From Lathyrus oleraceus (taxonomy: Eukaryota; Streptophyta; Magnoliopsida; Fabales; Fabaceae): a stretch of 64,000 nucleotides of DNA. This document shows positions 2,714-62,403 of the stretch, in pieces; position 1 is the stretch's first letter; the number at the start of each line of letters is the position of its first letter. The stretch covers positions 341,125,346-341,189,345 of the forward strand of contig NC_066585.1 in assembly GCF_024323335.1 (NCBI RefSeq), read 5' to 3'. A model generated the notes under the pieces. It ran no database searches and was not told the DNA's origin. It worked only from the letters and a program-made list of their open reading frames with translations. The position numbers and the translations under genes are program-made.

Positions 2714-2725
2714 CTAGTGGGAGAT
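2714..2725 (+). other. copia polypurine tract
   Basis: The purine-rich run AGTGGGAGAT directly precedes the LTR start TGTTGG at 2726, the usual position and sequence type of a copia plus-strand primer. The stop codon of the RNase H frame lies just upstream. Confidence 0.8.
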
Positions 2726-3682
2726 TGTTGGTGTAAGCCCTAGAGGCCAATACTTTTGGTACTTGTATCGAATTATTTATTAATAATAAAAGACTTTTTA
2801 TTTATTATGTTTGTTTAATAAAGTCCCTAGAATAGCTAGTCCATTTAATGTATCAAGTGTGACTTAATCATGACATCCCATTAAACATAAGGACATTATT
2901 CTTAAAGTATATATAGTCGAGCTTTATTGTGAAGTGGGATAACATTAAAGCATTAAGACTATTATGTATATAGACTGATGATCACATCTCATGGATCATG
3001 GATAAGGAGTTATCAAGTCTTAAACATAAGTATGAATATTAAGAGTAATATTTATACTGGATTGACCCGCTATGAGAATATTATATAGAATGTTATACAA
3101 AGTGTCATAAGTTATTCTCATGGTAATAATGGTGTATACCACACTTCGACCTGAAACCACTATGGACCCTAGATGTAGAGTCGAGTGCCTTATTGCTGAT
3201 AAAATATTGTCCGTAACTGGATGACCATAAAGACAGTTGATGGGTACTCCACGAAGCATGCTGAGGGACATGAGTGACCTAGATGGAATTTGCCCATCCT
3301 GCATCACAGGATAAATGTCTACGGGCCCAATATTGAACTAGACAAGGATGACACGGTCTATGCCTTGTGTTTAATATAGACATAAGGGCAAAAGGGTAAT
3401 TGCACACATAAGTATTATCACAAAAGGATTTGTCATATCACATGACATTTTCGTGTCTTGGGTAGCAGTAATATGTTGCTAGATACCACTCACTGTTTAT
3501 TATGTTAAATACGTAATTTAATATAATTGCTAATGTCGCGAAAACCTACAGGGTCACACACAAAAGGACGGATTGATGAGAGATAGAGTAAATAAGGAAC
3601 ACCGTAAGGTACGATGCACTTAAGTGAATTGTAGAATATCCTAAGGTACGGTGCACTTAAGTAGAATATGAAATATGGTAAG
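2726..3682 (+). repeat. copia 3' LTR, truncated
   Basis: This LTR matches the solo copy at 16776-18141 from TGTTGGTGTAAGCCC onward, with scattered substitutions. It stops after GGTAAG at 3682, where the Ogre-like LTR begins; the solo copy continues there with GTACCAAATAC. The promoter-proximal end is therefore missing here. A short block around TAAGGTACG(A/G)TGCACTTAAGT is present twice (about 3602-3665), against once at the same point in the solo copy. Bases 3678-3682 (GTAAG) are the probable 5' target duplication of the inserted element. Confidence 0.88.
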
Positions 3683-3936
3683 TGTAACACCCCAAAATTT
3701 GCCCTCCTTATTCACACATTCATTTTTAGGTCATTTAACATTAGATATATTGCATTTCATCATGTCAATCGGGATTAGCTCCAAGAAGCTTGAACATCAT
3801 CCAGGACACTTTGTGGGTTCTATTTAGATGATCAGTCAACACAAGGGAAAAACTTGAGTTACTTCCAACAAGGGTCTATTCGTCAGTCAAAACGTTAATC
3901 ATGAAGGAGCAAAGGTTTGTTCATGAGATGTCATGC

Positions 3937-4090
3937 TCGCTAGGCGAAGCCCACGTGTTATGCAAAAAAAAATGAAAAACGAAAAATAAATAAATAAAAT
4001 AAAAATAAATAAATAAATAAATAAAAGAAAAAATCTCAGACTTGGACCTCTCTCAAAAGCCCACTAAGCTACCAATATTAGGTTATAAAT
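3937..4090 (+). promoter_or_regulatory. LTR promoter of element 1: dyad, G-box, TATA
   Basis: TATAAAT at 4084-4090 is a good plant TATA box. About 140 bp upstream lies an inverted repeat TCGC-TAG-GCGA (3937-3947) followed by a G-box CACGTG (3952-3957). The second LTR keeps the dyad and the TATA box but has lost the G-box (CACGTA). Transcription is expected to start about 30 bp after the TATA box and to produce the genomic RNA. Confidence 0.65.
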
Positions 4091-5032
4091 ACTAGAGTTT
4101 TCATTGAAACAAAACCCTGGACAAAACCTGGAGAGAAACCTAGACAGAGAGAGTGAGAATTAATCTGCAGCAACCTCCAGGCAACTCTGAAAGGTTCATT
4201 CTGACTCACACACTTTCAGCTAAAGCAAACCCTAACATTGGTTTGCAAATCCAGCCGTGCCATTTGATTTCAACTGATCTCTCCAATCAGGTTTGCCCTT
4301 ATTCCCATTACCTTTGTGCTTTGAAGTTGAATACTCTGAATGTTTGAGGTATGATGGATGAATTTCATTAGGTTTTTGCCCACGGGTTCATAATTATGTA
4401 TGAATGTATAAATAATGCCTTGAATGCTTAATCGTTTAATTTCTGAAGTGTATGCCACAGGGTTTGAGGTTTCTGAAACCATACTATTATCCATGAAAAA
4501 TCCAAAACCCGCAGGCGCTCGTTAGCACCTTCGCTAGGCGAGCACGCAACGACGCTTCGCCAAGCCTTCGCTAGGCGAGATAGTAGCGATCGCGACAGTG
4601 GCATTTTCTTTTTTCTATTTTTCTCTAATCTGACTTACGTTTGTCATAGCATGTTTTCTCCTAATCCTTATCGTCTTTCACTAACCCTTTTGTTGAGTTT
4701 TTGTGAAGGCTCACATGACTTTTGCAAGGATAGCTCGCTGGATATTCCACTTTGCTTATGGGATACCATTTGGGAGATTTATTCTGATTGCCTTGTTGGC
4801 ACGTTTACTTTATACATGTTTGTTTTGTATGTGTTCGTATCCCCATAGGTAGCGTGGTTCCTTCGTCAAGGACTGCCTTTTTGCATGAGCATCCCTAACC
4901 CTACCAACTCATTGATTTTTCTTCTCCTAAGAACACGTTAACTCCTTCTACTACAGGCGAGTAAGTCTCCAAAGGTCGAGCATCCGCTAGATTGCGTAGT
5001 AACGTCGTTCGTCCAAAACCCAATCCATAACC

Positions 5033-5203
5033 CCGTAGTTAGCTGAACTACGGCTTGCTCTGATTCTCATTCCAGATGAGATACGTAGGCATAAGACGCG
5101 ATGTCTTAGCGAGCACAATTACCTTTAACCCCTAGGTAGCCGAGCTACGAAGACTCTGATTCTCATATTCAGGTGAGATACGTATGCAGTGGATGCGACA
5201 TCC
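5033..5203 (+). other. tandem triple-hairpin module near the LTR 3' end
   Basis: Two copies of a three-stem module about 102 bp apart. Copy 1: CCGTAGTT/AACTACGG (5033-5053), CTCAT/ATGAG (5066-5080), AAGAC/GTCTT (5093-5107). Copy 2: GTAGC/GCTAC (5136-5148), CTCAT/GTGAG (5162-5177), GGATG/CATCC (5191-5203). ATACGTA(G/T)GCA follows the middle stem in both copies. The first and last stems differ in sequence between copies but remain paired. Related blocks occur in the solo LTRs near 38375-38445 and 16141-16159 (minus) and, more weakly, in element 2. The position fits transcribed LTR sequence. Confidence 0.6.
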
Positions 5204-5521
5204 GTGCGAGTCATTTTCTTTTTACCCTTTTTTTTATAGTAAATAACACATTAGATAAACCCACACCCTTTAGACAAGAACTACAAAAGTGGATCCGGTA
5301 GAGTACTACGGATGCGTAGGAGTGTTAATACCTTCCCTTCGCATAATCGACTCCCGAACCCAAGATTTGGTTGCGAGACCCTGTCTTGTCCTTTCCTTTT
5401 TCCAGGTTTACTTCGAGCGTTTCCTTTCCCTCCTTTGGGATAAATAACGCACGGTGGCGACTCTCCTGTCTTTCTTCGCCGATTGTTTTTTTTCGCATTC
5501 CATTTTTCAGGTTGCGACAGC

Positions 5522-6502: not shown

Positions 6503-8932
6503 GTGCATCGCATACCATACATACTAACCCTTGTTTGTTTTGCAGGTGTCACCGCAGTGTCTAATGTTTGTTCCCTGTTGCAGGCAGTTATTGGTCCCAA
6601 GAGAGTTCACAGGTACCCGACGAAGGAAAACCGTCTACGACTAGCAATGGACCAAATACAGAAAGAACTGGCTGATATGCGTGAAAGGATGGATCAGTTC
6701 ATGACATTGATGACTGGTATGGCAGAAGGCCAGGCGAAGCTGAAGGAATTGGTTGAGCAACCGAGGCCCGATCCAGAGGTGGAAATACCAAGTGATGAGG
6801 GGAACCCTGGTAACCCTGGGAACGTTGATAACCCTGTGAACACTGGAAACGCGGGTAACGCAAATGTTGATGGAAACCCGGGTAATGTTGGCAACACGGG
6901 AAATGTTGGGAATGGTATTGGCGGAAGGTACAATGCGAATCAAGGAATTCGGATTAACGGGCGCCCCGTTACTAAAGATTATTAGTATGATCAATTCTCT
7001 GTGCACGACGAAGCCCATGAGACCACTTGCCGTATGGATGAGCTTGCTGAGAAGCTCAAATCTTTGGAGTCTCAAAATTCCTTAGGTTTTGATGTCACAA
7101 ATCTTGGTCTGGTTCAAGGAGTAAGGATCCCTCACAAGTTCAAACCCCCTACTTTTGAGAAATACAACGGGGGCTTCTTGCCCACGCACTCATCTCCAAT
7201 CTTATCTGGGAAGGTTGGGAGCTTACACTGAAGATGAAAAGCTGTGGATGTACTATTTTGAAGACAGTTAACTAGAGCTTCTCGTGAATGGTATTCTCAT
7301 TTGTCTCGTACTACCATCAAGAGCTGGAAAGACTTGGCAGAGGCTTTTGTCAAGCAATATCAATACAACTTGGACATGGCTCCAAATCGGACCTTGTTGC
7401 AAGGAATGTCTCAGACTGCCAAGGAAACCTTTAGAGAATATGCTCAGCGTTGGAGACAGATTGCTGCATCCGTCCAACCCCCTATGTCTGAAAGGGAGAT
7501 GGCGAACATGTTCATGAACACTCTTCAAGGCAATTATATCGAGAGATTGGCTGCTTGCCCGTCAATCAGCTTTGCAGAGATAGTAATTGATGGAGAAAGG
7601 ATCGAGAGTCTGTTGAAGATGGGTTGAATTCAAGACAACAGTGCTTCCAACTCATCAGTTCCCAAGAAACCGTTTGCTGGTAACGGTCAGCGAAGAAGAG
7701 AAGGTGAGACGAGCGTTGTATATGCCGGCAGAGGCAGGGGCAGAGGACGCCCTAATTATTATCAAGATCAAGTGGCCGCAGTCACTATTCCAACACTTGT
7801 TCCTCAACCGCAGTATCATCCGCAACAGCAACCCAGGTATAACAATCAACAACAAGGAGGTAATCCGGGTCAGCAGAGACCCTATCAACAACATCCAAGG
7901 TAGGCGGACCGGGTCATTGAGCCAATCCCAATGCCTTATTCTATATTACTTCCCAAGCTGATTGGAATGAATCTGGTTACGTTGAGAACTCTGGCCCCAC
8001 CGGTCGATCCCAACAATCTGCCTAGAGGTTATGATGTCAACGTCAGATGTGTTTTTCACTCCAACGCACCTGGCCATACTACATATAATTGCAAGGCTCT
8101 CCAGCTAAAGGTACAAGATTTGAGAGATGCCCAGGCCATCAATTTTTCTCCGGTGCCTAATGTTATCCAAAACCCGATGCCAGCTCACGGCGGGCAGAGG
8201 ATTAATGCTGTTGATAGTAGGGAAACTTTGAATTTGGTTTCTGATGTGACTAAAGTGAAGACTTCGCTATCGGTGGTCAAAGATCGACTCTTGAAAGGAC
8301 GGATTTTCCCGGGCTGTGGGGAAGAGTGCAGAAATTGTCAAGACGCCGAGAACGGATGTGATAATTTGAGAAGGGGTATTCAGCAACTGATAGATGAAGG
8401 TTGTCTTCAATTCGATCAGACTCGTCCAGTGAAGAATGATGTGTCAACAGTAACGTTTTCTTTCACTCCTAAAGAAATATATGTTCCCGAGAGACCCACT
8501 CCGACAACAATATATTTCCCAGAAAGTCCAGCACCAATTTACTCTAACAACCCTCAACCGACTTTGATTGGTCCGGTCACCATCACGGTACCAGGACCTG
8601 TTCCGTATGAGAAAGACAGTGCTATCCCGTGGCACTATGGGGCTGATATCTACTGCCAGGGGCAGAAAGTTAACGAAGAAGACATTGACATTGGTAGCTC
8701 CGCTGTAGACAATGTTGGAGGAATTGGTGGCTTCACTCGGAGTGGACGCCTATTTGCACCATCAACATTACGCACGATTATTGAAGCTGAGGCAGCTGCC
8801 AAGGCTAAAGGAAAACAGGTAGCCACCGAAGAGGTTACTACTGAGGAAGCTCCTCCTAAGACTGCATTCGAGAAGGAAGTGGATGAGTTTATGAGGATTA
8901 TCAAGAAAAGTGACTACAAGGTAGTCGACTAG
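6503..8932 (+). pseudogene. Ogre-like gag, element 1, with nonsense and frameshift damage
   Basis: Gag begins around the ATG at 6647 (MDQIQKELADMRERMDQF, coiled-coil-like). A Gly/Asn/Pro-rich stretch follows (GNPGNPGNVDN). The capsid core reads WKDLAEAFVKQYQYNLDMAP and ETFREYAQRWRQ around 7325-7460. A Gln/Pro-rich linker leads to a zinc-knuckle-like CVFHSNAPGHTTYNC near 8050. One frame carries most of it, with in-frame stops at 6983 (TAG), 7625 (TGA), 7901 (TAG) and 8930 (TAG). A shift at a G run near 7168 is compensated near 7270. The TAG at 8930 stands where element 2 encodes Gln. Not functional. Confidence 0.85.
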
Positions 8933-9982
8933 CTAAATCAGACACCCTCAAAGATCTCCATTCTCTCACTATTGATGTGCTCTGAGGCACACAGAACAGC
9001 CTTGTTGAAAGTACTGAATATGGCCTATGTTCCACCAGAGATAACTGTTAACCAGTTGGAGTCGGTAGTCTCGAATGTACACACTAGCCATGCGCTAGGT
9101 TTCACCGATTATGACCTGATACCTGAGGGCAGGAATCATAACAAATCCTTGCATATCATAATGGAATGCAAAGGGACGGTGCTTTCCCATGTTTTGGTTG
9201 ATACAGGTTCTTCTCTGAATGTTCTCCCAAAGAAAGCCTTGACGAAGTTGGATTGCGATGACGCCAGCCTGAGGCCGAGTAATTTAGTTGTAAGGGCTTT
9301 TGATGGCTCTAAGCGAGCTGTTTGTGGCGAAGTTGAGTTGCTAGTTAAGATTGGACCGCAGGTATTCAAGAGTACCTTTTATGTGATGGATATCCAACCT
9401 GCCTATAGTTGTCTGCTAGGTCGACCCTGGATTCATGCTGCCGGTGTTGTTACTTCTACTCTCCACCAGAAGCTCAAATATGGACTAGAAGGTCAGGTCG
9501 TCACCGTCTGTGGTGAAGAGGATATTTTTGTTAGCCACCTGTCTACATTTAAGTATGTGGAGATGGATGGCGAGATGCATGAGATGCTGTGTCAGGGCTT
9601 CGAAGCCATAAACATCAGTGAGGTCGCGCCTGAAACTGTCTTTTCACCTGAGTCTGAGAAGGTCGGGACTTCTATCTCTTCATACAAGCAAGTTGTTGAA
9701 GTGGTTAAGGCTGGTAATGCCCAAGGCTGGGGCAAATTTGTGGAGCCAATCATAAAAGAAGACAAGTTTGGATTGGGGTATACTCCGGGGTCTCAGAAGA
9801 ATGAAGTCGGTACTTTCTCCAGCGGGGGTTTGGTTTCTCCCCACATCGTCAATGCTGCAGATGAAGACAAGGCTGACAGCGACTGTGACTTAGATAGCTG
9901 GATTCGCCCGTGTGTCCCAGGAGAAAAGCTCGATAATTGGTCGTCTGAAAAAGTCGTCCGGTTTACTCTACTGAAGGAGTAA
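8933..9982 (+). pseudogene. Ogre-like protease region, element 1
   Basis: This continues the gag frame past the TAG at 8930. The aspartic protease core is visible as LVDTGSSLNVLPKKAL near 9195-9240 and SCLLGRPWIHAAGVV near 9408-9450. A C-terminal extension ends at the TAA at 9980-9982. The protease motif itself is intact, and the frame from the methionine at 8972 to 9982 is open, but it is separated from gag by a nonsense codon and from any RT by deletion. Protein of this type would mature gag-pol inside the particle. Confidence 0.83.
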
Positions 9983-10212
9983 TTTTTATTTTTTTCCTTT
10001 TATCACATGCATAACAAAGTCTTACACTTTGACCAAGGTGTAATGACTCATCTGTAGGACCATCCATTTAGTTACATTTCGCAATTATTTTCATCATCAA
10101 TAAAGGACAGCTTTTGCAAACAATTTTGTGTTCTCTTTCTTTCAATTATATTTACTTTTACAAAAACGGCAATGTTTCTTTTTCATGTTTCTTTTTCGTT
10201 TTTCTTTCCAAA
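9983..10212 (+). other. probable Ogre intron remnant between protease and pol
   Basis: About 230 T-rich bases lie between the protease stop and the start of pol-like sequence, where Ogre elements are known to carry an intron that is spliced to make gag-pol. I could not fix the donor and acceptor here. The equivalent gap in element 2 (57102-57346) ends with a convincing TTATGCAG acceptor. Confidence 0.55.
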
Positions 10213-11370
10213 AAACACCTCGTAAAACTGATCACCCGGATCTCACTGCTAACGACACTGTTATGGCCAAGAATGACTTCGACAATCCTATCTATCAAGC
10301 CGAAGAAGGGGTTGAGGAAGATTGTGAATTGCCTGAGAAGTTAGCCAGGTTGTTGAAACAGGAGGACCGAGCTATCACACCTTATCAGGAGGTGGTTGAG
10401 ACCATCAACATTGGTACCGAAGACGACAAGAAAGAGATCAAGATCGGGGCCAGTCTACAGGCCGAGAGGAAAAGACCGTTGATCATGTACTTGACTGTTA
10501 GAAAGGTCAATGGGTTGTGTGCTCGGTCAGCATGACGAGTCAGGTCGAAAAGAGCATGCAATATACTACCTTAGCAAAAAGTTTACCGACTGTGAACAAA
10601 GATACTCAATGCAGTATATGTTGACTCACACGACTCTGTTGATATCAAAGATGGATCAAGTCAAGTATATTTTTGAAAAGCCAACAGGGTTGCTAGGTGG
10701 CAAATGATGCTGGCAGAGTATGACATCCAATACACTTCACAAAAAGCCATCAAAGGAAGTTTCTTGTCAGACTATCTTGCCGCGCAACCGATTGATGATT
10801 ACCAACCTATGAGGTTCGACTTTCCTGATGAGGACATCATGTTTCTCAAATCGAAAGATTGCGAGGAACCACTCCCAGAGGAGGGGCCTAACCCTGAATC
10901 CAAATGGATTATGATGTTTGACGGGGCGGTCAACGTCAATGGTCGCGGAGTTGGTGTAGTGTTGATCACACCGGAGGGGGTTCATATGCCATTTTGTGCC
11001 AGAATAACTTTTCCCTGCACCAACAATGAAGCCGGACGAAGCAGAATGGGTCCGTTCTCGATACAATCAGCTAAGCCTAGTAGAGGCAAAGAGACTAGCA
11101 GCTATATTCCATGGCCAGCTATATTAGAGACGGACGAAGAGAGCGTTTGATCCGAAAGTGCGCCCTCGGGAGTATCGAGTCGGTGAATTGGTACTCAAAA
11201 GAATTCTTCCTCCCAACACAGAGCACAGGGGTAAATGGACACCGAACAACGAGGGTCCATACGTGGTTAAAAGAGTTTTCTCTGGCGGAGCTCTGATGCT
11301 AACAACCATGGATGGTGAAGACTTCCCGTCCCCTGTCAACTCAGACACAGTTAAAAAATACTTCGCATAA
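10213..11370 (+). pseudogene. pol remnant, element 1: RNase H, second RNase H, integrase tail
   Basis: It starts with the pre-RT region (ITPYQEVVETINIGTEDDKKE, ~10370-10440), then jumps directly at about 10465-10485 into RNase H sequence (GCVLGQHDESG, HAIYYLSKKFTDCE), so the RT domain is absent. RNase H has a further internal deletion and a frameshift near 10500. The second, archaeal-type RNase H of the Tat lineage is seen at about 10900-11035 (WIMMFDGAVNVNGRGVGVVL, TNNEA). The integrase zinc finger and core are missing; only the C-terminal tail remains (VGELVLKRILPP, GPYVVKRVFSGGALMLTTMDG, ending KKYFA, stop near 11370). Confidence 0.83.
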
Positions 11371-11381
11371 AATAGACTCGT

Positions 11382-11573
11382 TGGACAGTAAAAAGAATAG
11401 TCCAGGCAAAAAAGGGGCATCCCGACGAACCAAAAAAAAAGAATGAAGAGGTTCGAGCAAAAATTAGGGATATAAAAATCAAAAAATGTACACCCGGTGA
11501 GTCGAAAACCCGAAAGGGCGGCTCAGGAAAAAAAGGGTATCCCGGTGGATTGAAAACCCAAAAGGGCGGTCCA
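11382..11573 (+). other. post-pol hairpin cluster, element 1 (four stems)
   Basis: Immediately after the pol stop are four stem-loops: TGGAC/GTCCA (11382-11404), CGAAC/GTTCG (11426-11455), TGAG/CTCA with inner CCC-GAAA-GGG (11498-11525), and TGGAT/GTCCA (11546-11573). Three are preceded by CCCG and the stems are generally followed by an A-rich run ending in GGG. The equivalent places in element 2 (58628-58787) and the minus element (48701-48851) fold in the same way with different stem bases. Confidence 0.6.
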
Positions 11574-12784
11574 CGCAAAAGTTAGGGAATAAGCGAATAA
11601 CTGCGATCTGAGTTCATCCGTGTTATATCACCGTTTCATTCAATCCGGCAATCTTCGAAGGTAAAAGATCGACTAATCATCCACTTCAGAAAACAAGATG
11701 GGCAGAGCGTCTTGAGGACATATGAGCCATAGCAGAGTCGAAACTCGGTGGGACCCCGTTTCCACATTGCCATTAGGATAGTTTCTCTTGTTCAATTTAT
11801 AGCGATCGCCTCTTTCCAGGGATCAGCTTCCTGATGTACTCGCCTATTCCTGGCATAAATTTTTTAACCAACAAAAGTCGAATAATTCAGTTAAAAAGCC
11901 TCTTTACTTTTCATTTATCAGTTTGTTTGCAAAAGATGTCTGAATTCTCGAGGAAACATATTGCATCTGAATGTAATGGTGGCTTTTGCAGATGACTTGC
12001 GCAGGAAAACAGTCAAAATTGCTTTGAATGTGCTTAATCCCGGACGGTGAATTCAAATCGAGTAATTCCCCGGGGCATACGTATATTTTTTTGTTACAGG
12101 TCACAGGAACCGGATGCCAAGTCATGAATCCTCACCCCAAGCGGTTGACAAAGCCTCTCCTCTGCAGAGCAGGTTTCCCAGTAGAGCTGATAGTATCCAG
12201 ACTGTATATCCCCAGTAGAGTTGACAGTATCCAGACTGTATATCCCCAGCGGAGTCGACAGTGCCAGACTGTATCTTCCCAGCAACAGCGGAGTAGTCGC
12301 ATACCCAATAGACAAGAGGGTGGTGTTCCCAGTGTTCATCTCGTCCCCAGCAGATTATTTTTTTTAACAGATTTGTTTTAATCCCCAGCCTGAGGACGAT
12401 TAGCAAGTTCATATCCCCAGCAAAGGTCGATTCCTACGACATTTCCCCAGGAAGTGCTTTCCTCACAGACTCTCCTCGCAGAGCCTCGCCAAGCAAAGTT
12501 TCCATAGTTGATACTTCCCCAGCAAGGTCAACTTTTCAAAAAAGGCCGATTTATTTTCGGTGGCTCCCCGGTCCCAGCAGACGGATCGTTTCCCACAGAG
12601 CATTCAAGGATTGATACAGCGATCCGCTCCCTGCCAGAGTTGCTTCCCCAAGCAGATTTCTTTTTTCTTTTGCGCCATGCATAACATTTGCATTTGCATT
12701 TGCATGCATATCAAACATACACATAAGCTGATAAACATGTTCTTCAAAGCAGACTGAAAAATTACTTTACAACCAAAGTCATGA
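11574..12784 (+). other. 3' untranslated region of element 1, first part
   Basis: No protein is supported. From about 12165 the sequence is built from short CCCAG-containing blocks such as CCCCAGTAGAG and CCCCAGCGGAG. Three consecutive ACAGT/ACTGT-type stems with loop (AT)CCAG occur around 12190-12270. This type of repetitive 3' region is typical of Ogre elements. Confidence 0.6.
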
Positions 12785-13820
12785 GATTCGGCCAGAGGAT
12801 CAAGTGTGTGTGTGACCCAGCATGAGGGTCATTTCGAAGATTCAGCCTGAGAATCGTTTTCCAGAGATCCAGCCTGAGGGTCATTTCGAAGATTCAGCCA
12901 GAGAGTCGACTACGAACGTTATTTCCCCAGCAAGCCAGCTGGAGGAATAGATTGACAGCTCAACAGAAAATCAACCTACAAGAGGATCCAGCCCGCGGAT
13001 CGCATTTAAAAAACAAATTCTAATCGAAGAGTCGTTATAACATGTTCTAGCCTGAAGAATATGTACGAAGCCCAAAAGTGGGATATTCTCGAATCTGCAT
13101 ATCTAACATGAAAACTGTAGATTTCGAAAGAGGGTCAACCAGCGCATGCCCCAGATGCGAGATCCTGATGATGGGAATTTATCATCAAAACAATCCAGAT
13201 CTAGCCAGAAGATCGAAGTCAGGTCTAGCCCAAAGACCGGAAATAGATTCAGCCAGAGAATCGAAACAATTCAGATCTAGCCAGAAGATCGAAGTAGATT
13301 CAGCCAGAGAATCAAAGAAAATAGATTCAGCCAGAGAATCGAAACAATTCAGATCTAGCCAGAAGATCGAAGAAGATCTAGCCAGAAGATCGAAGTCAGG
13401 TCTAGCCCGAAGACCGGAAATAGATTTAGCCAGAGAATCGAAACAATTCAGATCTAGCCAGAAGATCGAAGAAGATCTAGCCAGAAGATCGAAGTCAGGT
13501 GTAGCCCGAAGACCGGAAATAGATTCAGCCAGAGAATCGGAACAATTCAGATCTAGCCAGAAGATCGAAGTAGATTCAGCCAGAGAATCAAAGAAAATAG
13601 ATTCAGCCAGAGAATCAAAACAAAGGAGATCTAGCCAGAAGATCGAAGAAGATCTAGCCAGAAGATCGAAGAAGATCTAACCAGAAGATTGAAACCGTAT
13701 CCAACCCGAGGATCAAAATTAACATCCAACCAGAGGACTAAATTGAGTATAGGTTCAGCCAGAGGATCGAAACTCCAGATTAAGTTAGAAGACTGATTCA
13801 GATTTAGCCAGAGGATCGGA
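12785..13820 (+). repeat. array of covarying AGCC(A/C/T)GA stem-loops
   Basis: The unit is a 5-bp stem, a 7-nt loop and a short spacer, with period about 20-30 bp. Examples with perfect pairing: GACCC/GGGTC (12814-12830, loop AGCATGA), GATTC/GAATC (12839-12855, AGCCTGA), GATCC/GGATC (12985-13001, AGCCCGC), GATCT/AGATC (13198-13214, AGCCAGA), GGTCT/AGACC (13222-13238), GATTC/GAATC (13246-13262). About 19 regular units fill 13198-13680; roughly a dozen degenerate ones flank them. A 200-codon open frame at 13078-13680 is a by-product of the repeat and not a gene. Confidence 0.8.
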
Positions 13821-13967
13821 AGAGAAATAAACAGCGCGGTGTATTTCAGCATTTTTGTGGTGTTCTCGGAGCGCGAATTTTCGGTCTGTCTTTGGTATTC
13901 AATCACAGCTCACTCTGTTTGTCTGATAAGCTGTTCGCTTTCATCCTGCTCGGGTTAGCTGATGACT

Positions 13968-13980
13968 GAATAGGGGCAGG
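13968..13980 (+). other. polypurine tract of element 1
   Basis: GAATAGGGGCAGG directly precedes the 3' LTR start at 13981. Element 2 has AAATAGGGGCATC at the same position and the minus element AAATAAGGGCAGC. Confidence 0.75.
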
Positions 13981-15585
13981 TGTAACACCCCAAAATTTGC
14001 CCTCCTTATTCACGCATTCATTTTTAGGTCATTTAACATTAGATACCTTGCATTTCATCATGTCAATCGGGATTAGCTCCAAGAAGCTTGAACATCATCC
14101 AGGACACTTTGTGGGTTCTATTTAGATGATCAGTCAACACAAGGGAAAGACTTGAGTTACTTCCAACAGGGGTCTATTCGTCAGTCAAAACGTTAATCTT
14201 GAAGGAGCAAAGGTTTGTTCATGAGTTGTCATGCTCGCTAGGCGAAGCCCACGTATTATGCACACACAAAAAAAACGAAAAACGAAAAGAAAAAAAATTA
14301 ATTAAATAAAATAAAAATAAATAAATAAATAAATAAAAGAAAAAATCTCAGACTTGGACCTCTCTCAAAAGCCCACTAAGCTACCAATATTAGGCTATAA
14401 ATACTAGAGTTTTCATTGAAACAAAACCCTGGACAAAACCTGGAGAGAAACCTAGACAGAGAGAGTGAGAATTAATCTGCAGTAACCTCCAGGCAACTCT
14501 GAAAGGTTCATTCTGACTCACACACTTTCAGCTCAAGCAAACCCTAACATTGGTTTTCAAATCCAGCCGTGCCATTTGATTTCAACCGATCTCTCCAATC
14601 AGGTTTGCCCTTATTCCCATTACCTTTGTGCTTTGAAGTTGAATACTCTGAATGTTTGAGGTATGATGGATGAATTTCATTAGGTTTTTGCCCACGGGTT
14701 CATAATTATGTATGAATGTATAAATAATGCCTTGAATGCTTAATCTTTTAATTGCTGAAGTGTATGCCACAGGGTTTGAGGTTTCTGAAACCATACTGTT
14801 ATCCATGAAAAATCCAAAACCCGCAGGCGCTCGTTAGCACCTTCGCTAGGCGAGCACGCAACGACGCTTCTCCAAGCCTTCGCTAGGCGAGACAGTAGCG
14901 ATCGCGACAGTAGCATTTGCTTTTTTCTGTTTTGCTCTAATCTGACTTACATTTGTCATAGCATGTTTTCTCCTAATCCTTATCGTGTTTCACTAACCCT
15001 TTTGTTGAGTTTTTGTGAAGGCTCACATGACTTTTGCAGGGATAGCTCGCTGGATATTCCACTTTGCTTGTGGGATACCATTTGGGAGATTTATTCTGAT
15101 TGCCTTGTTGGCACGTTTACTTTATATATGTTTGTTTTGTATGTGTTCGTATCCCCACAGGTAGCGCGGTTCCTTCGTCAAGGACTGCCTTTTTGCATGA
15201 GCATCCCTAACCCTACCAACTCATTGATTTTTCTTCTCCTAAGAACACGTTAACTCCTTCTACTACAGGCGAGTAAGTCTCCAAAGGTCGAGCATCTGGT
15301 AGATTGCGTAGTAACGTCGTTCGTCCAAAACCCAATCCATAACCCCGTAGTTAGCCGAACTACGGCTTGCTCTGATTCTCATTCCAGATGAGATACGTAG
15401 GCATAAGACGCGATGTCTTAGCGAGCACAATTACCCTTAACCCTTAGGTAGCTGAGCTACGAAGACTCTGATTCTCATATTCAGATGAGATACGTATGCA
15501 GTGGATGCGACATCCGTGCGAGTCATTTTCTTTTGACCCCTTTTTTTTATAGTAAATAACACATTAGATAAACCCACATCCTCTA
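13981..15585 (+). repeat. 3' LTR of Ogre-like element 1, truncated
   Basis: It matches 3683 to about 5275 from TGTAACACCCC through the tandem hairpin module (equivalent stems near 15345-15515), then diverges after AAACCCACA near 15585. The last ~240 bp, including the terminal GCGACA, are missing, so this end was deleted after insertion. Confidence 0.85.
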
Positions 15586-15723: not shown

Positions 15724-16775
15724 GTGACACCCTCAGTATGACGTAACATAATCTCACTAATTATGTTACTAACATGTTGAAGCTACATGAATTATACCCG
15801 AGCGCATCACACGCTCAAAGATACAACAGTGTCGCCATCAAACTTTATTTATTCCCGAAGGAAAGGGAAAACATCGATAAAACCCGGGGGAAAGAGAAAT
15901 GGGTAAGGAAGTCGGTTATGCAAGGGGAAGTAGCACCCCAAACATCCATGATACTCCATGGGAACCATTTTAAATGTTCTTTTCAAGAATATGTGTTATT
16001 ATCTGAAGATTACTCGCGGAAAGAGTGAAAACGGGGGTTAATAGATAATTGTGAAAGAGATGAGAAATAGGTAATTGTGAGAAAATGAAAGGAATAGATA
16101 ATTGTGCTCGCCAAGGATTTGGGCCCTCGTGCCTACGTATCCTCATTCGTGCAATGAGGAAATTAGAGCTCTGTAGTTCGTAGAACTAGGACGGATGCGT
16201 TAGTTGTTTTTAGTGGACAGTATTAACATTCGCATTCTACTGTCGACTGACTTGTATGCTCGAGCATGGGAGCTTTAAGCGTCTGTCTGTTTGCGGTAGA
16301 ATGTATGAACTCGGATCACACTTTAGCAGTTAAACATTACTTGCTCGCACATGGAGGCTTAAGCGTCGTTCACGGTAGAACGGAAGTAACACGCCCTTTC
16401 TGAAAAGGGTTTTAAACTGAAACTGAAGCCCAAAGGCAAAACTAAGTTTGATGAGGTGAGTTTGGTTTTATTCTGAAATGAGAGTCATGATTTGAATCGT
16501 ACTAAAGTCTATGAATGGAGATGAATACAGTGAGCAACTGGGTCATTCGTCTTGCACCTAAAGATATTCAGAATGGGGGTAGGAATTCTCGAGTCCCATT
16601 CCTTCTCCATTGCTTAAGGCTCGTATCGTACAATCCCAATCGTAGGGTTAATTGTTTTTGAGTTTATTTACAAAATGGTTTTAGTTTTAATGGGAGAACA
16701 AAAGGATAGAAAGAAAAACCCTGAACGGTGGAATTCTGATCTTCAATCATTGCTTCAATTTATGTAGAGAGACTC

Positions 16776-18141
16776 TGTTGGTGTAAGCCCTAGAGGCCAA
16801 TACTTTTGGTACTTGTATCGAATTATTTAAAGGCATTTTCTTTATTATGGTTGATTAATAAAGTCCCTGGAATAAATAGTCCGTTTAATGTATTAAGTGT
16901 GACTTAATCGTGAGAACACATTAAACATAAGGACACTATTCTTAAAGTATCCGTAGTCGAGCTTTAATGTGAAGTGGGATAACATTAAAGCATTAAGACT
17001 ATTATGTTTGTAGACTGATGATCACATCTCATGGATCATGGATAAAGAGTTATCAAGTCTTAAACATAGGTATGAATATTAGGAGTAATATTTATACCGG
17101 ATTGACCCGCTATGAGAATACTATATAGAAAGTTATGCAAAGTGTCATAAGTTATTCTCATGGTGATAATAGTGTATACCACTCTTCGACCTGAAACCAC
17201 TATGGATCCTAGATGTAGAGTCGAGTGCTTTATTGCTGATCCAACATTGTCCGTAACTGGATAACCATAAAGACAGTTGATGGGTACTCCACGAAGCATG
17301 CTGAGGGACATGAGTGTCCTAGATAGAATTTGCCAATCCTGCGTAACAGGATAAATGTCTATGGGCCCAATATTGAACTGGACAAGGGTGACACGGTCTA
17401 TACCTTGTGTTCAATATAGACATAAGGGCAAAGGGGTAATTATACACATAATTATTATCACAGAAGGTTTTGTCAGATCACATGACATTTTCGTGACTTG
17501 GGTAGCAGTGATGTGTTGCTAGATACCGCTCACTGTTTATTATGTTAAATGCGTGATTTAATATAATTGCCAACGCCGCGAAAACCTATAGGGTCACACA
17601 CAAAGGACGGATTGATGAGAGATAGAGTAACTAAGGAACACCGTAAGGTACGGTGCACTTAAGTGGGAGACGAAATATGGTAAGGTACCAAATACTTAAG
17701 TGATTTTGGGCATATTATAAGATATGGGCCAAAATACACTTAAGTGGGCTTTTTAGCTTGAAGCCCACACAAGTGGTTCTATAAATAGAACCTCTTGGGT
17801 AGAAGCATTGTCACTCCAATCCACTCAGACAGAAATTCAAGTAGAGACTTGGAATTTTGGTTTCCCTCTTTCTCTCACTCAAAGCCTTCATTCATAACAG
17901 CTAGCACTGCGATTGAAGGAATCCGTTCGTGTGGACTGAGTAGAGACGTTGTCATCGTTCAACATTCGTGATCGCCCCGTGGATCTGTATCAAAGGTTTT
18001 GATCATTATCAGAGATCTGCACTAAAGGTTTGAATCGCCACAAGAGGTAACGATTCTATCACTGATCATGCCCATTCGTAAGGATCACTAAATGGAGAAA
18101 ATTTTAAATTCCGCTGCGCCTTGGATGGCAGTTCTTCTACA
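16776..18141 (+). repeat. copia solo LTR with exact target duplication
   Basis: This 1366-bp LTR runs from TGTTGGTGTAAGCCC to CTTCTACA and is flanked by GACTC at 16771-16775 and 18142-18146. No internal copia sequence is present, so it is the product of recombination between two LTRs. It belongs to the same family as the LTR at 2726-3682. Confidence 0.9.
17656..17787 (+). promoter_or_regulatory. copia LTR promoter: three CTTAAG palindromes and TATA box
   Basis: TATAAATA at 17780-17787 sits inside the near-palindrome TTCTATAAATAGAA. Upstream are CACTTAAGTG (17656-17665), TACTTAAGTG (17693-17702) and CACTTAAGTG (17737-17746), 35-125 bp before the TATA box. The spacing and repetition suggest binding sites, but the binding protein is unknown. 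Confidence 0.6.

Positions 18142-20297: not shown

Positions 20298-20300
<3 letters not shown>

Positions 20301-20328
<28 letters not shown>
20301..20328. repeat. (GA)n microsatellite
   Basis: About 14 GA units in the Ogre-type solo LTR; read on the minus strand as a CT-rich tract, common near plant transcription starts. Confidence 0.9.
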
Positions 20329-20332
<4 letters not shown>

Positions 20333-20901
20333 AGAAGCCGGAATAATGATGAAGATATAGAATTATAATGATTAGGCTTGGGATTAATATGGCTTGAAGT
20401 TAGGCTTGTAGTTAGTTAAGTAAGGTTTGGAGTTAGTTGGGATGAACTCGGTGAGCTTAGGTGGTTAACTCATTGAGTTGGAAGTTAGTTGGTTGGTTAA
20501 CTTAATGGAATGTTTAAATGATTGTTTATGAGTGGCTATTGCAAGTGAAAACTTGAATAATGACATGTGGTTTGATTGGTTTAGGTGCAAGATAGAACCA
20601 ATAGACTCAATCATGACTGAGAACTGTAGGTTAGCAATTATATGGTCATGTTGTGCAAACTATGGTTTTGGTTATGTTTGTGCAGGTTTAAGTGTTCACA
20701 ATGTGTGTGGTTGAAGCTTGGTGAGGTATTGAACTTATTATTAAAAGTTTCGTCGAGTGTTCACGATTTTTTCTGGTATTTATGCAGGTATGCATTGGTT
20801 TTGAACTGCAATCCTTGGCTATTTTTGACGGTGGGAGTTCATGTTTCAATCCAAAAGTCCCATTCTCACAACAGTGAAAAAAATCCTGTAAAATAAGTTA
20901 T

Positions 20902-28680: not shown

Positions 28681-28685
28681 TGTGA

Positions 28686-34913: not shown

Positions 34914-35015
34914 ACTCTGCACAACACAACCACAACCGTTAAATATCGACAGTGTCATTTACACTAATCGACCAACAGGGAAAACTTCACCATATGACTC
35001 GACTGGACTGACAAT

Positions 35016-35518: not shown

Positions 35519-35522
35519 CTAA

Positions 35523-45934: not shown

Positions 45935-48700
45935 GCTGCCCTTATTTAAGGACATTCTAACTGAGGATGTGAAGGTTAAAATATTCGTATCGACTCAGTA
46001 GAATGGGCTTAAATAACAACATAAAGAAACGAATTTTGGTCCCTAAGAGACCTCATGATGCATATGATATGAATGTAAAAGCAAATCCTCTGTGGGGAAA
46101 TGTTGCCACAGAGGAAAAGAAATCAGAGCGACCGAAAGTCCACAGGAGCACAATGCATTCCGTAAGGAAAGCTCACTGGGGAAACATAGACTCTGGGGGG
46201 ACTAAAAGGGTTATGCATAGGCCAGGATATGACTTAAAAACTGCTGGGAGAGTAGAGGAATTCCATAAAAATGGAAAGACTCAGTCGGGGAAACAAAAAC
46301 ATCTGCAAGGGAAACGAGTAGATCAGGATAAAACTGACATACTTGAATTGTGCAGGAACAACAATTTCACTAAAGAAATGCGCACTCAACTCAACTGGGG
46401 AAGAAATAGACTTTAACACAGGAGGAGCAGTAATTTTTTATCCACTACCGGTTACTGGGTAAGGAGATAACAAAGATCTGACAGAGAGGAGATCCGTCAT
46501 CGGTTAGGATGAACATATCAAGGATGACTCGCTGGGAACCACCAGGCGGGTGTATTCGTTACCGGTTACTGGGTAAGAATAGCCTTGCTGGGAAAAACTA
46601 TAGAAATAGGATTTACAACTACCAATTACTGGGCAAAAGACCAAAGATGAGAATATCCGTCACCGGTTAAGGTGAACATATCAAGGATAAACTCAAAGGA
46701 AAGAAAATCCGTCATCGGTTAAGATGAACATATCGAGGATAGACTTTCTTGGGGATGCTAAGGAGGATATCCGTCATCGGTTAGGATGAACATATCAAGG
46801 ATAAACCAACTTGAACAAAAAGTAGGAATTACATCTATCAAGATAGAATACCATCAAAGAGAAAATTCGTCATCAGTTAGGATGAGCATATCAAGGATAG
46901 ACTCTGTGAGGAGAGAGATAGAAATTATATCTATCAGTTACTAGATAGAAAACCAAAGAGAAAATATCCCTCACCGGTTAAAATGAACATATCAAGGATA
47001 TACTCTACGAAGGGGGGAAAGCAGGATTTACAACTATCGGTTACTGGGAAGAAGATCGCAAAGAGAAGAAAACCCGTCATCGATTAGGATGAACATATCA
47101 AGGATTAACCCTCTGGGGGAGCAAAATAGGGATTACAACTACCTTTTTACTAGGTAGAATACTAAAGATGAGAGTATCCGTCATCGGTTAGGATGAACAT
47201 ATCAAGGATAAACTCACAACAGGGGAAGAAAATATCCGTCATCGGTTAGGATGAACATATCAATGATATACTTCCTAGGGAAACATAAAATGAATCCGCT
47301 GGGGAGAAAACAGGGGTACTTTTGCCGGGTATTGGGCAAGAAGTAACAAACTGCAAACCAAGAATAATATTACCAGTTACTGGGTAATAAACTCTTAGGG
47401 GACCCAAAACATCTATCTAGGTAGGATCTAGAAAGAAAAGGTCAATCAAGACTCGACCCAATGAGGATATAACTCAAGGGGAGTGGTTCCATCCAAATAA
47501 TCAACTGGGGAGGAAACTGAAATACTAATCATCCACGAGGAAATAACTCAGTGGGGAAAGGAGAAAGGTTAAAATCTTTCTGCTTAGGGGGCTGACACTT
47601 TATATTTGAGGAAGGACAAACACTAAACTCGTATGGGGATAAAGTACCGCCATAACAGAGAATAAGAATCACAAGAATGAGTCAACAAGTGTGATGATGC
47701 AACCATGAAATTATATGAGTGTAGATGTAGATGTATATGTATATGTATATATGATGATTATGCTGACAAAATGATCGCAAAGGGTACAAGGGTGTCGCAA
47801 AATTTGAATCATCGATACAATTCTCGGTCAATCCACAAAAAAGGGAGATAACTGCTGGAGAAAAGAGAGATCGGCGTCTCAAAGGCCCAAACCTATATGG
47901 GGAAGGAGGAGATCTGTTGAGAAAGACTTTTATCGAGTCTGCGGGGATTTTAGGTCAACACCATATCAAATGGGGAACAACCATGCAAAGGATAAACACA
48001 AATAGCTGCTCATAATCCAGGAGAAAAATCTGACTGGGAGTGAATCTGATGGTAACTGGTGAGGAAACCAAAGTTCTGCCGAAATCATGCAAGTTATTGT
48101 AACGAAATATCCGCACTCAGCTGGGAACTCGGCTGGGGAAAAGCGAACAATAATCGTCTGGAGAAATCAACAAACATCGAGTGCTGAACAATGATGTCGG
48201 GGATGAAAGAGAAATTGTGCCTACTGCTTGGGGAGAACCAATACTGCTCCCCACTTAGGGCTTACTGCTTTCGAACCACTGTTGATATTCCTTCTAAATG
48301 AAATCGATTATTTAAAATTACTGCTTTTATATGTTTTAAGAAAACATGTTTTGATTAAAACTTTAATTTTCAAAAATGATCATAATAAAACTTAAAACTA
48401 TTTGGCTGAAATAAATAAGAGTAGAAATAATTGGATAAAAGCTCGACTTTAATTAATAGAATGGTAGTCTGTAAATGACAAGACTCCATAGATCTTTACA
48501 AAGTTGAAAATGGTAATTTACATGGAAAAGGGTTATATTGAATACAAATGACCACTAATACTTCTACCAACTCTAGATATCCACTGTGCTCTTGGCTGCT
48601 ATTGGGGATGATGAATCACCGCCGACCGTTGTGCTCAACAAAGTCTTCAAATCTGAAGATCAGTTGGATGCAGTTACTTGCCATAATCCCTAATTTTTGC
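45935..48700 (-). other. 3' untranslated region of the minus-strand Ogre-like element, hairpin-rich
   Basis: This stretch is built of imperfectly repeated blocks (plus-strand reading ATCCGTCATCGGTTAGGATGA, then ACATATCAAGGATA). On the minus strand, stems with a CAGTAACC-type loop occur near 46442, 46560, 46950, 47148 and 47370, with different stem bases (for example CTATC/GATAG, ATTACC/GGTAAT). A variant TTGCC/GGCAA surrounds a related loop near 47320. The 137-codon frame at 46003-46416 is not supported as a gene. Confidence 0.65.
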
Positions 48701-58787: not shown

Positions 58788-60437
58788 GCAAAAAATAGGG
58801 ATTTGGCAAGTAACTGCATCCTGACAAGACCTTGTTCTACAACTGTCGTCCGTCAGAGATCCTTGCTCATTATCAGCCAAAGCTTCAAATACATCGGATT
58901 CAGAATTGGTGGAGAAATGGTCATTATGTTTAATGTAGCCCTTTTCCAATATATATCACCAATTTCAAATTTGTAAAGATCTATGGAGTCTTGCCATTCG
59001 CAGACTACCATTCCATCAAATAAATTTGAGCCTTTTATCAATTATTGGCACTCTTATCTGTTTCTATTCAACAAATGTTTTGCATGTTTTGATTAAGAAA
59101 ATATCATTATTTTAAACGATCAAATTTTTTATAATTTGTTTTTAAACAAAGTGAACATTCACAATGACGAAAGGATACTTAGGAGATCCTCAGTGCTCTC
59201 CCAAGGGTGGTACGATCCCCAACAGGGTAAGATTTTTGTCCATATTCCTGGCATGACTGTATCTCCTCCCTCCGGAACCCCTTGTGGTTTATCCTACCAA
59301 GTGGATTGCTTGTTGAGAGTCACCTCTCTTCCCTTCAGCAGAGTAGCAATCTTTCTTCCTCAGCAGCTTGGATCTCTTTGGGTAAGAGCGGTATTTGGTG
59401 GTTGATCCCGATAAATCCTTTATCTCCTCGGATAGATTCCCCAGTAGAGTTGTTGGTGTGGTGGACCTTGTCTGTGATAACTCTCGTCCCCAGCTGGAAT
59501 GATTGATGATTAATCCCTTGCAGAGTTCTTTGCTTCCTGGTATCTCTGATCCCCAACAGATTGGATACTCTCCGGTGAACTTGGCTTTCTCTCTTGAGAT
59601 GTAGTACCGGGTGGTTGATTCCTGGACCTGGTTGTGTTAGATATGTCTGTCTGTCAGCATACATCATACATAAACCACGCATATTCATGCATAATTATAA
59701 CATTCAGATATTCATGTTGCATTCTTTGCCATATACCGTTGTTTATTGTCTCCTGCTATTTGGTGATATACTTCCCCAAGCAGACGTGTGTGTCTGATCT
59801 CTCCATATAGAGTCAGCTCCATAAGCAGAAAGCGTCTATCCTTTCTTCCATATTCCCCACCGGGTTATATCCTCGTGGATGTTGATTGTTTTTGTTCCTT
59901 TCCAACACATATACTGGGATGGTTTTCCCCATTGAGTTATATCCTCACCGGGACAAGTCTTGATTTGGTGTGCCTATCTAGTTTGATCCTAGATCGGTCT
60001 CTTGAGACTCTTTTCCTGTTTCCCCGTGGTAAATGAATAATCGCTCAATAATTAGTAATTATTATCCCGACGGAGTCTGTGGTTCTCTACCCTCATACCG
60101 GTAGTTGTAAGTCATATTTCTGTGGTCTACTACCCAGTAACCGGTAGTTGTAAATCCCATTTTATCCCCGTGCAGAGTTAAACATTGATTGTTGTTCATC
60201 CTAACCGATGACGGGTACTCTCTTTTGTGGTTCTCTACCCTCATACCGGTAGATGTAATTCCCTCCTTGTTGGTTATCTTTATACAAAATTCGATATTGA
60301 CATTCCTTAATTTTTTAGTATACCACCCAGTAACCGGTGATATATATCTTGGATAATTGCTCTAATTACGCAATTTATCCCCAGCGGGTCATCTCTCGTC
60401 TATCTTGTTGTTGTTAGTAACGATTGTTCCTCTCTTG
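58788..60437 (+). other. 3' untranslated region of element 2, first part
   Basis: Non-coding. Early blocks carry CCCCAGCA and CCCCAAC motifs. From 60087 stem-loops appear: CTACC/GGTAG (60087-60104, loop CTCATACC), ACTACC/GGTAGT (60129-60148, loop CAGTAACC) and CACC/GGTG (60324-60339, same loop). Confidence 0.6.
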
Positions 60438-61640
60438 AATTGGTCATCATTATATACCTAGTTTCGATATCCCGATGCCTTTTCTTTTCGGTCGATTTAT
60501 CCTTTATTAACCCAGTAACCGGTTGTGGATAATCGTCCATGCGAGTATATTATCTACGTTCTGACGGTAATAGATAGTATATCTCATGCACTCTTTGGTC
60601 GAAGCCTTTTGTTCTTCCCCAGTTGAGTAAGATTCGTACCCCCTTTTCGGAGTCGAATGTCCATCCCATAATCAAGTTTGCTTTTTGCCCTCTTTTTGGA
60701 TGATGAGTGTTTTGGGAATATTCCCAAATTCACGCCCTGAATTGGTCATCATTATATACCTAGTTTCGGTATCCCGATGCCTTTTCTTTTCGATCGATTT
60801 ATCCTTTATTAACCCAGTAACCGGTTGTGGATAATCGTCCATGCGAGTATATTATCTACGTTCTAACGATAATAGATAGTATATCTCATGCACTCTTTGG
60901 TCGAAGCCTTTTGTTCTTCCCCAGTTGAGTAAGATTCGTACCCCCTTTTCGGAGTCGAATGTCCATCCCATAATCAAGTTTGCTTTTTGCCCTCTTTTTG
61001 GATGATGAGTGTTTTGGGAATATTCCCAAATTCACGCCCTGAATTGGTCATCATTATATACCTAGTTTCGGTATCCCGATGCCTTTTCTTTTCGGTCGAT
61101 TTATCCTTTATTAACCCAGTAACCGGTTGTGGATAATCGTCCATGCGAGTATATTATCTACGTTCTGACGGTAATAGATAGTATATCTCATGCACTCTTT
61201 GGTCGAAGCCTTTTGTTCTTCCCCAGTTGAGTAAGATTCGTACCCCCTTTTCGGAGTCGAATGTCCATCCTATCATCAAGTTTTCTTTTTGCCCTCTTTT
61301 TGGATGATGAGTGTTTTGGGAATATTCCCCAATTCACGCCTTGATTGGTCATCATTATATACCTAGTTTCGGTATCCCGATGCCTTTTCTTTTCGGTCTA
61401 TTTATCCTTTATTAACCCAGTAACCGGTTGTGGATAATCGTCCATGCGAGTATATTATCTACGTTCTGACGGTAATAGATAGTATATCTTATGCACTCTT
61501 TGGTCGAAGCTTTTGTTCTTCCCCAGTCGAGTAAGATTCGTACCCCCTTTACGAAGTCGAATATCCATCCTATCATCGAGTTTGCTTTTAGCCCTCTTTT
61601 GGATGATGAGTGTTTTGGGAATATTCCCCAATTCACGCCT
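60438..61640 (+). repeat. 302-bp tandem repeat, four copies
   Basis: The marker TGGTCATCATTATATACC recurs at 60441, 60743, 61045 and 61346, and a diverged fifth boundary is at 61645, giving periods of 302, 302, 301 and 299 bp. Copies differ by few substitutions. Each includes AACC-CAGTAACC-GGTT (for example 60510-60525). Ogre 3' regions are known sources of satellite repeats. Confidence 0.92.
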
Positions 61641-62403
61641 TAGTTGGTCACCTATTATATGCCCAGTAACCGGTATCCCTGGTGTTCCCACCTCTCTGCT
61701 CCCTATTATGACTTTTTGTCCTCTGTGGAGTCAGATTTTCCTGAGTTGAGATATACCTTTTTAGGTCTTCCTCAGATGATTTGGTTGATTGATATCTCTC
61801 ACCCTTATACCGGTCTTAGATATTCATTCTTCCCGAGCATGTTGTATCTCACCCTCATACCGGCGATCAGATCACCTGTCTTCTTGAGCTTATTACCCAG
61901 TAACCGGTAATACCTCGTCCCGCTGCTTCCCCAGGAGTGTCCTTTTAGGCATCCCCAGCGAAGTCCCTTAGTGGATTGTTTTCATCCAGATTTTTATCCG
62001 AAGTACCCGTTGTGGATAGTTTTTGCTGTATTGGCATATTCCCCAATACATGCACCTTTGAGTCAGCTCGGGTCTTTCCATTGGATATTTTCCCTTTGGA
62101 ATTCTGTTCCCCAAGCGTTGAGTCGTGACCTGCTCACGCATTTTATTCCCTCTCCTATCCCCATAAGAGTCCCTAGAGTCTCTGTCCCATTGAGTGTATT
62201 TCTCATATGGATTGTCAGTTTCTCCGGATGTCTTTTCTTCTTTGTGGACACATATCCCCACAGAGTTCGTACTATTTGCATACATACATCTGCATCATGA
62301 GGTCTCTTAGGGACCAAAATTTGTCTCTTTGTTATTATTTAAGCCCATTATACCTCGTCGAGACGAAGATTTTAACCTTCACTTCTCCGGCTAGAATGAC
62401 CTT
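61641..62403 (+). other. 3' untranslated region of element 2, last part
   Basis: Non-coding, with further stems: ATGCC/GGTAT (61659-61676) and TATTACC/GGTAATA (61891-61912), both with loop CAGTAACC. ORF-like stretches on either strand here are chance frames. Confidence 0.6.

Follow-up and report, generated by a model that had tools for sequence, protein, structure and literature searches.

The animal iron-responsive element has a five-pair upper stem of free sequence under a conserved six-base loop, CAGUGN. The pea Ogre hairpins described here resemble it in their short stem, fixed loop and free stem sequence, and differ in number and match: the iron-responsive element is present in single or few copies, whereas the Ogre array has many copies and no Rfam match in the window.

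Hypervariable tandem repeats in the 3'UTRs of Ogre/Tat LTR retrotransposons are reportedly the subject of a 2009 study by Macas et al. Our hairpins agree with those repeats in location, in the elements concerned, in tandem arrangement and in unit sequence and length that vary among families; the accessible portions of the literature treat them as repeats and satellite precursors, whereas here they appear as hairpins of constant loop whose pairing shows signs of selection. Titles and abstract openings of the papers listed contained no report of hairpins or covariation in Ogre 3'UTRs; the 2009 study may describe them. Neither 'hairpin' nor 'secondary structure' occurs in PMC2206039 or PMC6317226, and neither 'stem' nor 'secondary structure' in PMC7004042. 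Ogre is given as 20-33% of the pea genome (PMC2206039, accessible portion).

The nearest worked example is the RNA of satellite tobacco necrosis virus, likewise a single RNA with tens of short stem-loops that have a common loop motif and varied stems: about 30 potential stem-loops are described, with an AXXA loop preferred by the coat protein, a preference obtained from SELEX and assembly assays (PMC3593212, accessible portion). The viral motifs are degenerate and spread genome-wide, whereas the Ogre loop is nearly constant, lies in the 3'UTR and is known from sequence alone. Ty1 and Ty3 are comparable as LTR retrotransposons whose RNA has cis-acting regions at its ends. Localisation and packaging of Ty3 RNA depended on the UTRs or POL (PMC4974528, in which 'hairpin' does not occur), and Ty1 differs in that kissing loops close to its 5' end serve dimerisation (PMC5454406, accessible portion).

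A hairpin array in the 3'UTR of an Ogre element

The window, a 64-kb stretch of the pea genome at C7:341125346-341189345, holds at 12785..13817 on the plus strand an array of hairpins (class F1) with 5-bp stems and 7-nt loops, 28 of its 36 candidate units being fully paired, with 13 stems. The loop is AGCC(A/C/T)GA or a near variant; a unit was a candidate if its loop had at most one mismatch to AGCC[ACT]GA, or at most two when the stem was fully paired, and Watson-Crick and G-U pairs were accepted. Candidates number 37 at 12751-13812, 36 of them inside 12785-13817; all five stem positions pair in 28 of the 37 and at least four in 31, while nine are not fully paired. Five pairable flanking bases surround the exact loop AGCCNGA at 23 of its 25 sites within 11501-14200. 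Across the 64 kb, AGCC[ACT]GA occurs 31 times on the plus strand (23 paired, all at 12844-13806) and never on the minus strand.

A preliminary description of this DNA had proposed about 30 stem-loops with 5-bp stems and a fixed loop in an Ogre 3' region, and these points hold: 28 are fully paired, the loop is near-constant, the array sits in an Ogre 3'UTR, and the five stems it named (GACCC/GGGTC, GATTC/GAATC, GATCC/GGATC, GATCT/AGATC and GGTCT/AGACC) are all present. Its likening of the units to a tRNA anticodon arm stands for the geometry of a 5-bp stem and 7-nt loop and goes no further, as the window matched no Rfam family at gathering score. The tRNA anticodon loop has U33, and the F1 loop carries G there.

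The dense tandem core (13198..13690, plus strand) is also repetitive at a higher order, with periods near 78, 99 and 177 bp, and its hairpins are spaced 23-28 nt apart (loop starts 13203-13679). It consists largely of homogenised tandem copies of three unit types, GATCT/AGATC, GATTC/GAATC and GGTCT/AGACC, in 78-177-bp blocks. Non-homogenised hairpins with distinct stems lie at 12785..13063 on the same strand: GATTC/GGATC, GACCC/GGGTC, GATTC/GAATC, GATCC/GGGTC, GATTC/GAGTC and GATCC/GGATC, together with an 8-bp stem, CATGTTCT/AGAATATG. The minimum free energy of the RNA at 13190-13700 is -104.5 kcal/mol (z -4.4), in a fold that contains many of the array hairpins, some in a shifted register with a 6-nt loop; the minus strand gives z -4.83, so that the strands are alike and energy is uninformative on strand. 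Folded alone, ten single hairpins from the four classes introduced below reach -2.5 to -6.2 kcal/mol.

Open frames span the array on both strands (plus 13051-13680; minus 13185-13676), but a protein-coding gene was rejected because the unit spacings of 23, 24, 27 and 28 nt share no frame. Pairing of the F1 loop with the element's own leader or LTR was also rejected, for the full 7-base loop: its complement, TC[AGT]GGCT, is absent from the 3'UTR, the leader and both LTRs.

The array occupies the 3'UTR of element A, an Ogre-type Ty3/gypsy element on the plus strand. The 5' LTR (3682..5452, plus strand) has an approximate right end, set at the PBS-like TGGCGACTC at 5455, which we take to be the putative priming site for tRNA-Arg. 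The 3' LTR (13981..15582, plus strand; right end approximate) starts with TGTAACACCCC and is directly preceded by a polypurine tract, ATAGGGGCAG (13970..13979, plus strand). The two LTRs form a direct pair with 96.6% identity by self-BLAST (3682-5269 versus 13980-15582), and tandem repeats lie 5' of the 3' LTR, as in the Ogre/Tat 3'UTR. A tRNA-Arg type of primer binding site and 3'UTR tandem repeats are both given as Ogre traits (PMC2206039 and PMC7004042, accessible portions). Pfam identifies gag (Retrotrans_gag PF03732, E 1.2e-13, 7262-7627) and, barely, a protease (Asp_protease_2, E 5e-5, 24.4 bits against a cut-off of 24.3, 8933-9982). In the two frames searched downstream of the protease, 10104-10535 and 10677-11150, Pfam has no reverse transcriptase, RNase H or integrase match, and element A looks internally deleted there. 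Direct 0.9-kb copies with 91.3% identity (2721-3626 and 16769-17665) flank its LTRs on the outside, and may represent a nested insertion or older remnants. Genome-wide, the junction of polypurine tract and 3' LTR was found, with at most two mismatches, 36,935 + 36,648 = 73,583 times (backward control, 4), near the published Ogre copy number of 65,000 (PMC2206039, accessible portion).

Covariation of the F1 arms

A hand-picked set of 19 F1 units comprised two window units and 17 of the 41 units present in at least four of 43 copies. In this set, from which four of the six incompletely paired units among the 41 are missing, 96.8% of stem cells are paired (matched in 0/500 arm shuffles; slid registers do not exceed 58.9%), and the covariation score is 0.578 versus 0.353 shuffled (0/500; slid registers at most 0.194). 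By a cruder measure, two-sided change is seen at four of five pairs, which 17/500 shuffles also reach.

The unpicked set was all 41 units, and was compared with a tree-based null, our own simulation rather than R-scape, in which the parsimony changes of each stem column were placed randomly on the unit tree in 500 runs. Cells changed on both sides number 37, against a null mean of 5.2 and maximum of 25 (0/500), and 35 of the 41 units are fully paired, against 10.1 and a maximum of 34 (0/500); on all three measures the null reaches the observed value in 0/500 runs. Among the 28 distinct F1 units of the window, 19 are fully paired and both-side changes number 25 versus 5.4 (0/500), and the null reaches the observed values of the three measures in 0, 0 and 1 of 500 runs, the one being for cells paired. 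When arms were swapped among arm pairs found in at least two loci (2000 permutations), 20 of 34 were paired versus 11.1 expected (maximum 18); pairs 3 and 5 are barely above expectation.

The stem GATCT..AGATC occurs 19,781 times genome-wide and GGTCT..AGACC 3,954 times. At pair 4 of GRTCT-AGCCHGA-AGAYC the genome holds A-T 19,781, G-C 3,954, G.T 298 and A.C 126 times; the mixed arms GATCT..GAATC and GATTC..AGATC occur 15 and 40 times. Two-sided changes in F1 thus exceed arm shuffles, slid registers and the tree-based null, which bears out the earlier proposal that the arms change together beyond what tandem copying explains. The check proposed with it, covariation against a phylogenetic null, came out above our simulated null for two-sided changes in F1 and in the three classes that follow.

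Further fixed-loop classes in pea Ogre copies

The first fifty listed junctions were surveyed in map order, with 1.5 kb of upstream sequence for L031-L060 and 3.5 kb for L061-L080. Loci were assigned to F1 with at least three paired hairpins, and to F3 or F4 with at least two, a criterion that biases the latter classes toward pairing; F2 was defined by choice from one locus, L037. By our own tally a hairpin class is held by 37 of the 50 loci and none by 13 (3 F1, 1 F2, 14 F3 and 22 F4, with three loci having both F3 and F4); among the first 30 loci, three hold F1. All 15 TGTAACACCCC-type junctions in a list of 100 were examined, yielding 13 F1, 1 F2 and 1 neither. One Ogre copy, L040, has a TGTAACACCCC-type LTR preceded by GCAAC and lacks all four classes in its 1.5 kb upstream; it is a natural negative for comparison.

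The F2 loop is (A/G)T(T/C)CAG, on stems CGAT/ATCG, CGGT/ACCG, TGGC/GCCA, CGAC/GTCG and CAGT/ACTG. In L037 and six loci picked from those matching it, four positions pair around 229 of 254 loops; five Watson-Crick stems are each found in 5-7 of these seven loci, and CGGC/GCCA, with one A.C, in six. F3 has loop (C/T)TAACC on TCATC/GATGA, TCACC/GGTGA, TCACT/AGTGA and TTACC/GGTAA, and F4 has loop CAGTAACC on TTACC/GGTAA, CTACC/GGTAG, ATACC/GGTAT and others. Both-side changes number 26 in F2 (L037, 26 units) versus a null mean of 5.1 and maximum of 25 (0/500), 8 in F3 versus 1.3 and a maximum of 7 (0/500), and 9 in F4 versus 1.5 (2/500 as high). The fraction of cells paired is weaker, the null reaching the observed value in 11/500 runs for F2 and 17/500 for F3; for units fully paired it does so in 6/500 for F2 and 1/500 for F4. 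Arm swaps (2000 permutations) gave 8/15 paired versus 3.2, maximum 7, for F2 in one locus, and for arm pairs in at least two loci 7/11 versus 3.2, maximum 7, for F3 and 7/10 versus 2.1, maximum 6, for F4.

F2, F3 and F4, which go beyond the preliminary description, are all present in the same window as F1. Element A itself has a 34-bp tandem repeat with F2-like hairpins (12177..12282, plus strand; loop ATCCAG at 12195 and 12229), whose stems at 12190-12239 are ATAGT/ACTGT and ACAGT/ACTGT; the latter, with the ATCCAG loop, is found in 23 of the 43 F1 copies, 30 of which include 1.8 kb or more upstream. The 3'UTR of element B (60130..61912, plus strand) contains eight F4 hairpins with loop CAGTAACC, at 60135, 60328, 60513, 60815, 61117, 61418, 61664 and 61898; four are copies inside a 302-bp tandem repeat and the other four differ in stem. 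Its 3' LTR starts at about 62417, and its reverse transcriptase was identified by Pfam (RVT_1, E 1.5e-20, 57795-58265). Eight of the ten F4 loop sites on the plus strand of the window have four paired bases. F3 hairpins occupy the 3'UTR of element C on the minus strand (46446..47254; LTR from about 45934 leftwards), with stems TCATC/GATGA, TCACC/GGTGA and TCATT/GGTGA, alongside two F4-type hairpins at 46571 and 46457; of the eleven [CT]TAA[CT][CT] sites within 45960-47320, nine have a stem paired at all five positions. We find, then, four classes of predicted fixed-loop hairpin in pea Ogre 3'UTRs, whose stems of four to five pairs vary on both sides.

Some other features of these elements were noted. 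An open frame of 483 aa in element B (52065-53516, plus strand) matches DUF7745 (PF24924, E 6.9e-135), presumably in the place expected for Ogre ORF1; in the frame listing of element A, from that listing alone, none is of this length. In all three 3' regions the sense strand is rich in the word CCCAG, with 14, 15 and 17 occurrences versus 5.0, 3.0 and 3.4 expected from dinucleotides at 11701-13970 (plus), 59901-62405 (plus) and 45956-48300 (minus), and 0, 1 and 0 antisense. CCCAG may be a further motif, single-stranded and akin to the loops of the hairpins.

Blind scan and flanking positions

A blind scan for an identical loop word on differing complementary arms detected, at p<1e-6, 6 of 52 upstream sequences and 0 of 52 in each of the mirror, plain-complement and direct-repeat controls. 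At p<1e-5 it detected 10 of 52, versus 2, 1 and 1 in those controls, and 42 of 52 had no match. Among pieces upstream of the 3' LTR, 7/30 were found at p<1e-5 versus 0/30 inside or past the LTR, and 10/30 at p<1e-4 versus 3/30 on the LTR side. Over 84 overlapping pieces of the window, p<1e-4 picked out the three Ogre 3' ends and four other places: TATA at about 27751-29250 (2e-6, low complexity), AGAG at about 16501-18000, GAGTCG at about 20251-22500 and ATTTT at about 62251-63750.

Around the GAGTCG place, 20955-21206 holds about two copies of a 113-bp repeat that contains palindromes TGAGTCGACTCA, and GAGTCG is carried there on two stems, TGAAT/ATTCA and TGAGT/ACTCA. Elsewhere in the window, direct 1.8-kb copies with 99.8% identity (28685-30503 and 35522-37343) surround a 1470-aa ORF (30546-34958, minus strand), and the whole resembles an LTR element that inserted very recently; both copies contain 21-bp repeats with the palindrome TACGCGTA.

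At the first base beyond the stem, pairing is at or below expectation (observed/expected 0.14/0.15 at F1 position 6, 0.22/0.34 for F3 and 0.29/0.28 for F4, and 0.14 versus 0.25 at F2 position 5). It rises above expectation again at F1 positions 7-8 (0.59 and 0.50 versus 0.36 and 0.37) and F2 positions 6-8 (e.g. 0.74 versus 0.57), below stem levels in both. This outer excess likely arises from the relatedness of units. Pairing in excess of column composition was accordingly discarded as proof, since outer positions show excess too, and the tree-based test is the sole guard against this effect.

Age and strand of stem variants

After insertion a copy evolves freely, so private variants should be mostly neutral, while shared ones have passed through replication. 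Taking arm pairs of F1, F3 and F4 found in at least three loci as shared, 27 of 38 shared arm pairs are paired, versus 9 of 68 private ones (Fisher 3e-9); the 11 shared ones that are not fully paired include TATCC/GGATC, in 31 loci. Decay of a paired ancestor would account for part of this contrast, and we therefore put more weight on the two-sided changes and on the kind of mispair.

A G.T in the sense strand is a wobble pair in that RNA, and an A.C is a wobble in the RNA of the other strand. Among shared arm pairs with one non-Watson-Crick position, G.T occurs 15 times and A.C twice (p 0.002; other, 6), and among private ones 5 and 8 times (p 0.58; other, 19); shared and private differ by Fisher 0.007, on counts that are small and partly dependent. 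F1 alone contributes a shared G.T:A.C of 10:2 by our own count, three of the ten being at a C usually before G, and F2 gives 2:1. The retained pairing thus looks like that of sense RNA. Selection on sense RNA predicts both shared pairing and a G.T bias, whereas neutral duplication and strand-symmetric DNA processes do not. As to the earlier suggestion that the region acts as RNA, the shared/private contrast and the excess of G.T over A.C point to selection on sense RNA, with the small and dependent counts tempering this part of the case.

What may read the loops

On these sequence patterns, we consider it very probable that the hairpins of the Ogre array are RNA under selection for pairing. 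The genomic RNA of Ogre would carry in its 3'UTR a string of short hairpins displaying one common loop, and selection would have kept this RNA paired in lineages that transpose, since a protein would recognise the loop whatever the sequence of the stem. A constant loop on interchangeable stems would be the mark of such a protein, and many weak sites in series could provide high avidity. That the array is a multivalent platform read through its loops is, we judge, probable, and we would give about the same credence to the account as a whole as the best explanation in this one plant genome, that of pea. The likeliest reader may be the element's own Gag/nucleocapsid, a weaker step, with the array serving as a packaging or assembly signal on full-length RNA and each subfamily having its own loop; a role in Gag packaging in particular is put forward tentatively.

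The main rival to Gag is a host export or stability factor. Ogre RNA is very long, and a host protein might read the loops to export it from the nucleus, stabilise it, localise it or have it translated; such a reader would leave identical anatomy and RNA-level evidence. The position of the array, in the 3'UTR just before the LTR, also suits it, as some retroviral transport elements lie there. The differing loops of related subfamilies would nevertheless fit a co-evolving, element-encoded partner better, and we regard a host reader as possible but rather unlikely.

Selection on pairing could be dispensed with if the hairpins were a neutral by-product, in which a few inverted-repeat units multiply and their arms stay matched, with no function, through quasi-palindrome correction templated by the hairpin when the RNA is reverse-transcribed or the DNA repaired. 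Such a process would suit the core, mostly homogenised copies of three unit types in 78-177-bp blocks, and the excess pairing seen in part outside the stems; Ogre 3'UTR repeats have also been called hypervariable and satellite seeds (PMC7004042, accessible portion). Templated correction, however, would produce Watson-Crick perfection without a preference for G.T, against the 15:2 of shared and 5:8 of private mispairs, and of 38 private F1 arm pairs only six are paired, none of them all Watson-Crick. The loop moreover stays fixed as stems change, even among the dispersed F4 hairpins, and two-sided changes are above the tree-based null in all four classes. We consider a neutral origin improbable.

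A DNA-level element (palindromic protein sites, or cruciforms with a role in chromatin, transcription or the birth of satellites) is very improbable: an inverted repeat has strand symmetry as DNA, and satellites arise from related Ogre repeats (PMC7004042, accessible portion), but DNA-binding dyads usually keep their arms and leave the spacer free, whereas the array keeps the spacer and varies the arms, and the asymmetry of G.T over A.C is strand-specific.

Significance for Ogre and its host

Returning to selected RNA hairpins read by a protein, an unlikely but consequential extension is that the loop of each subfamily is a 'bar code' for its own co-evolving RNA-binding protein, whether Gag/NC or the product of the extra ORF1. 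If true, an element could thereby give its own RNA the advantage among competing and defective copies that number in the tens of thousands, and the apparent hypervariability of Ogre 3'UTRs would record this arms race. If the hairpins are selected and have subfamily loops, a large non-coding region would gain a testable function and its hypervariability a cause, and selection on RNA in plant Ty3/gypsy elements would become testable by simple binding assays. The 'junk' repeats of Ogre 3'UTRs would then be a functional RNA element in disguise, probably a series of sites at which a protein docks.
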